Positions 6,663-40,391 of a stretch of 45,550 nucleotides of DNA are shown piece after piece. The stretch's first letter is position 1; each line of letters opens with the position of its first letter. Source of the DNA: a virus. The position numbers and the translations under genes are program-made. Location: the IMG/VR virus record IMGVR_UViG_3300020455_000026, positions 1 through 45,550 of that record. One strand, 5' to 3'. Under the pieces are notes generated by a model. The model had not been told where the DNA came from, made no database searches, and saw only the letters and a program-made list of their open reading frames with translations.

Positions 6663-6691
6663 ATTATAACAGGTTTTTAATCTTTTGTCAA
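6663..6691 (-). promoter_or_regulatory. Consensus sigma70-type promoter for nuclease-33-59 operon
   Basis: TTGACA at 6691-6686, 17-nt spacer, TATAAT at 6668-6663, then ATACATT and the ATG. Both hexamers are perfect. The start site should fall within 1 nt of the start codon. Confidence 0.88.
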
Positions 6692-7144
6692 GCCGTGAGT
6701 ATAGTGTGTTTTTCCGTCAACTCTAGACGCTCTTAATACTTGTTTTCTATTATCGTGAAGTTTATAGGAACAATGTACCCAACCACTATTCGGGTCGCCG
6801 TCTTTATAAAACTCCAATATGATCTGGTCAAAGTCTAGATTGTCTATAATCCACTCTGTCAGTTCTTTATTGTCAATACCTGTTATTTCAAAATCTGCTG
6901 CCTGCCCTTGAGCGTGTTGAGAAGTTTTACTTGATCCTATCTCTTCACATAACTCGGGTGATCTATAACCAGAGGTGACTCTTACACCTTTTGCAAAATG
7001 ATCTCTTACAGGTTGTAAAATTTTATCACATAAGAGTTTCATATTCTCTTTATGTGCGTCTGATGGTGTGTTATCTATACCTTTTGTTTCTGCGGTAGTA
7101 GATTTAGTCATTTCACTTAGACTAAAGTTTTTCGATAATTGCAT
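6677..7144 (-). CDS. M15-family D,D/L,D-peptidase (endolysin candidate)
   Basis: 155 aa, the whole length being a peptidase M15_3 domain. Zinc ligands are visible: His77 and Asp84 in SQHAQGQAADFE and His124 in GWVHCSY. VRVTSGYRS is the usual conserved strand. The enzyme cuts peptide crosslinks of peptidoglycan. There is no signal peptide, so export for lysis would need a holin. A second wall hydrolase is at 12658-13341. The 3' end contains the -35 box of the next promoter. Confidence 0.87.
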   Translation of the reverse strand: MQLSKNFSLSEMTKSTTAETKGIDNTPSDAHKENMKLLCDKILQPVRDHFAKGVRVTSGYRSPELCEEIGSSKTSQHAQGQAADFEITGIDNKELTEWIIDNLDFDQIILEFYKDGDPNSGWVHCSYKLHDNRKQVLRASRVDGKTHYTHGLTKD

Positions 7145-7593
7145 TATTTACCTCTAGTTATTGCTACTATTTTTTTTAATTGTGATTCGATTACTGTTTT
7201 ACGATTAGGCCAGTAAATGTAATTCTCTGGCGCCTTTGCTAATTTTAACATCAAAGGTATTACTAACTTTTCTAACTCAGTAAATTTACTTTTCATTTCT
7301 TTGCCAAGATTATCTTTTCTCAAATCGTATTCATCATCCATTTGTTTCTTAGCAATATCAAGTTCAGTCTCATTCTTCTCTTTAATCTCAGACTTAGCAG
7401 AATTAACTGCTGAATATATCTTGTCTAATTTACTCTCTAGTGCTTTTAAAGATCCGTCAGTTACCTTAGCAACTTCACTAGCAGCTGTCTTTGCAACTGC
7501 TTCAGTATCTTTTGTTTCACTAGGTTTTGAGTCAGTTGTGGTAAAACCCCAATCTAAATCGGTATCAAAACCATCTAAAAAATCTAAATCCAT
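7144..7593 (-). CDS. Conserved coiled-coil phage protein, function unknown
   Basis: 149 aa. Acidic, Trp-containing N-terminus (MDLDFLDGFDTDLDWGFTTT), a central helical region of ~80 residues with heptads, and a C-terminal NYIYWPNRK segment. From memory, proteins with this ending recur in marine T4-like phages without a known function. The ATG has a GGA Shine-Dalgarno. Its 5' leader contains the structured RNA at 7609-7733. Confidence 0.7.
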   Translation of the reverse strand: MDLDFLDGFDTDLDWGFTTTDSKPSETKDTEAVAKTAASEVAKVTDGSLKALESKLDKIYSAVNSAKSEIKEKNETELDIAKKQMDDEYDLRKDNLGKEMKSKFTELEKLVIPLMLKLAKAPENYIYWPNRKTVIESQLKKIVAITRGK

Positions 7594-7608
7594 ATTTGTT
7601 CCTTTGTT

Positions 7609-7733
7609 GGGCGAGTAGTAATTTATTCGCCTATCCCGGTGCCCTACTCGCCCCGGTGTTGTTGCCTTGTCGGATTGATTTACTCAACTTCTTATGTGCT
7701 AAAGCACGGTGTTGTAAATGTCTCGACAGCAAC
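7609..7733 (-). ncRNA. Structured RNA or leader with defined 5' end, family not recognised
   Basis: A GC-richer island between two genes. The RNA begins GUUGC-U-GUCG (7733-7724), which pairs with CGAC-AAG-GCAAC (7672-7661). Inside this stem are a GUGC-UUUA-GCAC hairpin (7707-7696) and a small UUGA/UCAA hairpin. A second domain is a perfect 10-bp stem, GGGCGAGTAG with CTACTCGCCC (7653-7644 with 7618-7609). No U-run follows, so it is not an intrinsic terminator. A late-promoter octamer at 7746-7739 places +1 at 7733, the first base of the closing stem. It could be a stable small RNA or a cis-acting leader of the 7144-7593 gene. It is not a recognisable tRNA. Confidence 0.6.
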
Positions 7734-7738
7734 ATAAC

Positions 7739-7746
7739 TATTTATC
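7739..7746 (-). promoter_or_regulatory. Late-type promoter of the structured RNA
   Basis: GATAAATA. By T4 spacing the start site is 7733, exactly the foot of the first RNA stem. The octamer begins just after the last sense codon of the 7746-8057 gene. Confidence 0.6.
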
Positions 7747-8057
7747 TAATCTACGATCTTCCCGTACTTCTTTTTAATTTTTTCTAGTGCGGCCTTTGTC
7801 TTTGCTTCTTTTGCCCCTCTTTTTCTATATCTATCAGCAAGAGGACTATGTGGATGAGCGTCAGCAACTTTACCTAAAACCTCTTTAAATCCATCATCTA
7901 TCTTACTATCTAATTGTCCGACACTACTCACTATACCAACACTTGTAGGTACTAGTTCTATATTCTTTTTCTTAGTAAATTTTTCCATTTCAGATATAGA
8001 CATTAGGTCATCCCATTCTTCACCTGTTTGTTTATCTCTAAATGTATATAAGGGCAT
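7746..8057 (-). CDS. Conserved hypothetical phage protein (103 aa)
   Basis: Starts MPLYTFRDKQTGEEWDDLMS, a strand-rich opening like the FmdB-type zinc ribbon but without any Cys. A middle segment (DDGFKEVLGKVADAHPHSPL) and a Lys-rich C-terminal helix follow. Similar proteins exist in T4-like marine phages (from memory) with no assigned function. Start overlaps the upstream stop by 1 nt (TAATG). Confidence 0.7.
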   Translation of the reverse strand: MPLYTFRDKQTGEEWDDLMSISEMEKFTKKKNIELVPTSVGIVSSVGQLDSKIDDGFKEVLGKVADAHPHSPLADRYRKRGAKEAKTKAALEKIKKKYGKIVD

Positions 8058-28792: not shown

Positions 28793-29236
28793 TTATGCAA
28801 AAGTCACTCCGTTAGAACCTAAAACGATCCAACTAGAATTAACATAACAAAGTTGTACAGTATCACCAACATCATTAAAAGTAATTGTTGTATTACTTCC
28901 TGCGAGTGTTGATGGTGTTAAGGTGACATCGCCACCGTCTGTAATCATTGTAATTATTTTAATTTGTCCTACAGCGCCAGCAGCGAGTGTTATAGCATAT
29001 GCACCTGTACTTGCGAGTGTGGTTACAGCAGTTGTCAAGTTCACAGCACCTGTTGAAGTTAGTGCCTGTGGTGTACTATCGAATGCCAACCATGTAGGGA
29101 AATTATTGAATAAACTTGAAATGCTTATTTTTTTATTAACTGGTGTACCTGATGGATCATCTATCACATGAAGTAGATCCTCAGCAGCAATTCCAGTTCC
29201 TAAATCCGTTAGGGCGGTTATCTTTTTATCAGCCAT
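28793..29236 (-). CDS. Probable virion surface/fibre protein (147 aa)
   Basis: The N-terminus [20 protein letters not shown] followed by [20 protein letters not shown] is a motif common at the start of phage fibre and structural proteins. The rest is Thr/Ser/Val-rich beta structure ([19 protein letters not shown]). Expressed from a late promoter whose transcript starts with a 5' hairpin. Role in the virion is inferred. Confidence 0.72.
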
Positions 29237-40360: not shown

Positions 40361-40391
40361 TATTTATATAACAGTTTAGCATATAAGTCAA
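40361..40391 (-). promoter_or_regulatory. Overlapping sigma70-type and late promoter
   Basis: TTGACT at 40391-40386 (preceded by TTAACGC), 17-nt spacer, and a -10 TATAAA (40368-40363) that is the first part of the late octamer TATAAATA (40368-40361). GCAGT and ATG follow. One site may serve both host and gp33/gp55-type polymerase. Confidence 0.75.

Follow-up and report, generated by a model that had tools for sequence, protein, structure and literature searches.

The T4-type late operon of gene X and endolysin in SAR11-phage-like myoviruses appears to open with a new 5′-terminal leader RNA that acts in cis. In the reading that we favor, with somewhat better than even confidence, the nascent fold would set expression through a factor or by capping the transcript. 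The window (the whole 45,550-base virus record analyzed here) encodes T4-type proteins (gp32, helicase loader, endolysin), and its closest named DNA match near the leader is Pelagibacter phage HTVC008M. On its minus strand, a late promoter octamer, the predicted transcription start, the core RNA, a second hairpin, a Shine-Dalgarno sequence (SD), and the AUG of gene X (7593) follow one another in this order.

Structure of the leader

The core RNA (positions 7660..7734, minus strand) is about 74–75 nt long (71–83 nt in relatives) and, according to the covariance model and to covariation, is made of five stacked helices with internal loops. P1 pairs GUUGC with GCAAC (7733-7729 with 7665-7661), and its variants GUUGC, GAUAC, AAUGC, GUACC, and AGUGC occur with matching partners. 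A 2-nt bulge (7667-7666) separates P1 from P1b, UGUCG/CGACA (7728-7724 with 7672-7668; UAUCG/CGAUA elsewhere). An asymmetric internal loop comes next, with unpaired AG on its 5′ side (7722..7723) and unpaired CAAUC on its 3′ side (7673..7677). Beyond this loop lie P2, AUUUAC/GUAAAU (7719-7714 with 7683-7678), and P3, AAC/GUU (7713-7711 with 7688-7686; AGC/GCU elsewhere), with a GA bulge beside P3 (7685-7684). The terminal hairpin P4, GUGC UUUA GCAC (7707-7704 with 7699-7696), varies in both sequence and length.

The second module of the window, found in the sequence and in the alignment of leaders, is a hairpin with a perfect 10-bp stem, GGGCGAGUAG/CUACUCGCCC (7653-7644 with 7618-7609). In subtype A, to which the window belongs, this stem may be crossed by a 3-bp CCG/CGG helix (7656-7654 with 7638-7636), a possible pseudoknot in which 95.8% of cells were kept and one pair was compensated (eight sequences). 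In other subtypes this place is taken by a short palindromic hairpin (GUGUAGCUACAC, GAUGAGCGCUCAUC, GAUCAGCGCUGAUC, and others). The SD, AAAGGA (7600..7605), is present in the aligned leaders and lies a few bases after the second module. In the folding models, no subtype hid the SD consistently, either in late or in read-through transcripts; its predicted accessibility was intermediate and mostly open, with no clear on/off switch, and no conserved alternative structure coupling the core to the SD was seen.

The GC content of 7609-7733 was 48.8%, against 33.6% for the window, and only 0.2% of 125-nt windows were as high. The minus-strand fold had a free energy of −40.5 kcal/mol (z = −4.3), which none of 200 shuffles equaled. 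The plus strand also folds (z = −5.4); the minus strand was taken as the transcribed one because of the promoter and the wobble asymmetry, as helical cells included 26 G-U and 5 A-C cells. These results bear out the first-pass annotation, which had described a GC-richer 125-nt block with a closed two-part stem and a separate perfect 10-bp stem; P1 was as given there, and the second part of the closed stem (P1b) is one pair longer than had been written. It had also judged the element to be neither a tRNA nor an obvious terminator, and indeed no tRNA was found at the locus by ARAGORN or Rfam and no U-tract follows either hairpin.

Late promoter and position of the first stem

The T4-type late promoter octamer GATAAATA (7739..7746, minus strand) begins with the last base of the TAG stop codon of the upstream neighbor (7746..8057, minus strand), a gene with a PHROG match to phrog_385 (transcriptional regulator). 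The late box of the T4 family lies at about −13 to −6 relative to +1 (PMC2988020), and counting 5 nt from the octamer gives G7733, the first conserved paired base, as the predicted +1. Of 47 distinct leaders, 46 had the octamer in this position, and the remaining one lies at a contig edge. The arrangement is that of a T4-type late leader, with a NATAAATA box, a predicted +1 about one helical turn downstream, and a spacer of 4–7 to P1.

Among the 22 leaders with the commonest spacing (spacer 4), pairing was found in all 22 at each position from +1 to +5, in 12 at −1, and in 4 at −2, and in leaders with longer spacers it started at +3. Thus, the conserved stem starts at the predicted start or within two bases of it, in agreement with the earlier proposal that the octamer sets +1 at the first paired base. 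The additional pair U7734-A7660, which could form in the window, corresponds to position −1 and is not conserved. Placement of +1 gains independent support from the distance between octamers and start codons: the modal distance from octamer to ATG was exactly 5 nt in HTVC008M (nine cases), Mosig (seven cases), and the window (five cases). At such sites, +1 is predicted to be the A of a leaderless AUG.

Several other promoter-like sites were noted in the window. Minus-strand octamers at 40368, 16214, 1836, 1675, and 1120 are each followed by an ATG after exactly 5 nt and are predicted to give leaderless late mRNAs. Another late leader (29335-29237, minus strand), upstream of 28793-29236, has a predicted +1 that opens a perfect 8-bp hairpin, TGAGGGAG/CTCCCTCA. 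Two sigma70-type promoter-like sites (6691-6663 and 4314-4286, minus strand), with 12 of 12 consensus bases and 17-nt spacers, lie upstream of the exonuclease gene and of gp32, one at each. Hairpins at +1 were not enriched at late octamers in general (98 octamers in three phages), and the hypothesis that late mRNAs generally carry a 5′ hairpin was rejected on this result.

Compensatory changes in relatives

Relatives were first gathered through the downstream protein and not through the RNA, so the first sample was not biased toward structure. Most of these loci had a leader of the same layout between the octamer and the ATG. A pattern scan of viral contigs added further loci, for a total of 47 distinct leaders and 31 distinct cores (IMG/VR contigs).

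Compensatory changes were counted in a MAFFT alignment of 19 of the distinct versions. Standard pairs made up 95.7% of cells, and 13 of 23 pairs had changed on both sides; when the structure was slid by 1–3 columns as a control, the corresponding values were 23–41% paired cells and 2–4 compensated pairs. P1b, P2, and P3 all showed compensatory changes, as did three of the four pairs of P4. Since shuffles ignore relatedness, an R-scape-style test that takes the tree into account was added, in which substitutions were re-dealt along the tree and a G-test with average-product correction was applied (P4 left out). Four of 20 structural pairs were significant (E < 0.05; range, 2e-4 to 0.013), one each in P1, P1b, P2 (P2.5/P2r2, E 2e-4), and P3, and no nonstructural pair was. 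The first-pass annotation had named the lack of compensatory base changes among homologues as evidence against its proposal of a structured RNA with a base-paired 5′ end; such changes were abundant in the related phage contigs, and together with the pairing from +1 they uphold that proposal and its assignment as a leader of the 7144-7593 gene.

The unpaired loop residues were invariant while the stems varied (alignment A1), and AG and CAAUC were likewise invariant in the loci gathered through the neighboring protein. The lengths of core and leader varied in all three frames, which argues against coding. Two marks of a structured cis-regulatory leader were both observed, namely compensatory changes beyond phylogeny and a constant position upstream of one gene and function.

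Distribution of the RNA

The core covariance model (R1) scored the window at 81 bits (E 2e-20), and true members scored 69–88 bits. In the records checked there was one RNA copy per record, always upstream of gene X with the SD between. Rfam 15 gave no match at the curated gathering threshold for the window leader and six relatives; at permissive thresholds, the best subthreshold matches of four subtypes had E values of 2.6–10 and belonged to unrelated families. The covariance model found no copy in the whole genomes of HTVC008M and Mosig, and no isolated phage with the leader was found in the phage collection searched. One scan of GTDB contigs returned about the number of matches expected by chance (an estimate), scattered over phyla and at most 27 bits, and a looser pattern applied to viral contigs gave only chance matches outside the X locus. 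Two pattern-selected matches at 22 bits (L204 and L208) resembled coding DNA and were rejected as members. By these searches, and against a literature of open-licence papers, the RNA appears to represent a new leader-RNA family.

Other structured RNAs were seen in relatives. Permuted alphaproteobacterial-type tmRNA genes occurred at L212:2938-3254, L213:5261-5533, and L135:38-321 and were not found in the window; one of these relatives also had a manA RNA (Rfam RF01745; L213:7575-7781), above the gathering score.

Presence and absence at one locus

Most relatives lacking the RNA have the octamer, 5 nt, and then the AUG, an arrangement from which a leaderless mRNA for X is predicted. In the RNA-lacking pair L065/L072, a short leader is present that includes an SD but shows no fold. 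Where loci with and without the RNA had coding flanks about 90% identical, they differed by a clean segment between the octamer and the ATG. On the protein tree, the fewest gain and loss changes of the RNA were five to six, of which at least two were forced by well-supported branches. The clean segment difference and the changes on the tree together indicate that the element is gained or lost as a unit with its SD.

The downstream operon

Gene X (7144..7593, minus strand), the first gene of the operon, encodes a 149-aa protein with an acidic N-terminus and a coiled coil. In relatives the protein has 149–156 aa, with the same acidic, motif-like N-terminus and coiled coil; it had no Pfam, PHROG, or PDB match, and its AF2 model was of low confidence (coiled coil). 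The next gene (6677..7144, minus strand) overlaps X by one base and encodes an endolysin (Peptidase_M15_3, Pfam E 5e-18; phrog_894 endolysin).

The operon ran into an endolysin in all 54 typed versions with the RNA. X was followed directly by the M15 enzyme in 18 of these, directly by GH108 in 31, and by a 124-aa membrane-type protein in 5; in the last case, an M15 endolysin came next in the loci read further. This 124-aa protein (MKVSENTSISMPARNLISII..., one apparent membrane span, phrog_20984) follows X in C-type loci (L039:2464 and L042:2464 onward) and also in L021 and L022, and it is possibly a lysis protein. Among typed versions lacking the RNA, four had GH108, and the others, at least eight, had no endolysin there. 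GH108 is also the next gene in the distant relative Mosig, which lacks the RNA, and in the L062/L063/L072 group the endolysin is likewise present where the RNA is missing. In close relatives, the slot between X and the exonuclease gene holds M15, GH108, or nothing, which indicates that lysis enzymes are swapped at this site. A tree test of the RNA against the endolysin was not significant, with too few independent changes and one informative independent pair; as both traits are clustered on the tree, their association is suggestive only.

Discussion

We infer that the leader acts in cis after transcription. Late transcripts would begin at 7733, where the pairing of a long bulged hairpin also begins; the second hairpin would follow, and the largely exposed SD and then the AUG of X would lie 3′ of both. 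The nascent leader would fold immediately upon synthesis, and its invariant asymmetric internal loop AG/CAAUC may be recognized by a factor from phage or host. Acting through this factor, or as a cap that shields the 5′ end from decay, the leader would determine how much X and endolysin are translated late in infection, or when. We favor a bound protein or ligand because the unpaired AG and CAAUC are invariant and face each other while the stems change freely, as in a recognition site more than in a simple clamp.

The main rival is a passive 5′ stabilizer, a doubtful though serious reading, in which a stem at +1 would keep enzymes (pyrophosphohydrolase, RNase E) from reaching the 5′ end and make the lysis mRNA longer lived, without any ligand or partner. 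Pairing that starts exactly at +1, the mostly open SD in the folds, and the lack of a visible switch partner agree with it. A plain hairpin would suffice for this function, however, so that the fixed bulges as well as the unpaired, invariant AG and CAAUC are left unexplained, and hairpins at +1 were not enriched at the octamers of three phages. Less likely than this is a new riboswitch class of SAR11-infecting phages, which would sense a host metabolite through the AG/CAAUC loop and set translation of X and endolysin, tuning lysis to the state of the host. The compact helical core, the invariant loop residues, and the variable second hairpin beside the SD resemble such a device, and relatives carry glutamine riboswitches (PMC9004378) and a manA RNA; yet no Rfam aptamer matched even at E 10, the gene context is single and the distribution narrow, and no conserved alternative structure connects the core with the SD. 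Thus, of the first-pass suggestion of a riboswitch-like leader, the leader stands and the riboswitch-like part is only possible.

The remaining alternatives are weaker still. The put RNA of phage HK022 suppresses termination through the zinc-binding domain of the RNA polymerase β′ subunit. A nascent RNA of this kind, binding the polymerase and making it resistant to pausing or termination, would fit the length of about 75 nt at the transcript 5′ end and the succession of a bulged stem and a second stem, in which the leader resembles putL (PMC9378689); the putL layout of two stem-loops is different, the promoter here is of the T4 late type, and no convincing terminator was found between X and endolysin or elsewhere in the operon, which makes this reading improbable. 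In T4 gene e (lysozyme), the SD is masked in early transcripts alone, by an RNA structure located at a late promoter (PMC3014915), and the present operon is likewise a lysis operon behind such a promoter. The T4 structure straddles the promoter, whereas here the entire RNA lies downstream of +1 and would also be present in late transcripts; moreover, the SD was mostly open in the folds, and its predicted openness showed no consistent difference between late and read-through transcripts. A ribosome site hidden in early read-through transcripts and freed in late ones is therefore very improbable, and SD masking of this type, with the SD paired in read-through and free in late transcripts, was rejected as unsupported by folding. 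Just as slight is the chance that the leader gives rise, by processing or internal termination, to an independent late small RNA; a late small RNA was one suggestion of the first-pass annotation, and the compact fold with a defined 5′ end would fit it. Since no terminator follows the RNA (neither hairpin is a GC hairpin with a U run), we do not regard it as a small RNA; moreover, the SD and AUG of one particular gene always follow it, and no convincing copy was found at other loci in the viral and GTDB contigs scanned.

The leader can also be compared with other structured RNAs of phages. The leader pseudoknot of gene 32 in T4, T2, and RB69 is a structured operator upstream of the SD, comparable to the possible pseudoknot of subtype A; it belongs to another gene, and the present RNA has a different fold, with a conserved internal loop among its five stacked helices. 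The gene 32 operator carries A+U-rich UUAA repeats. Glutamine riboswitches (glnA) occur, with a two-piece tmRNA, in the related marine phages Melnitz and Mosig (PMC9004378) and likewise represent regulation by structured RNA, although the present leader has no Rfam match to glnA or any other family and lies at a different locus before a different gene. When pelagimyophages were surveyed by means of Riboswitch Scanner, neither riboswitches nor regulatory mRNAs were reported, and late promoters could not be predicted (PMC7029224).

Phages of SAR11 rank with the most abundant viruses, and a lysis operon of the SAR11-phage type is now found to carry a strongly covarying family of structured RNA. 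Its presence and absence in near-identical relatives provide natural pairs for the effect of the leader on expression and lysis timing, and the family is relevant to the exchange of leaderless for structured-leader initiation, or the reverse, at a single gene.
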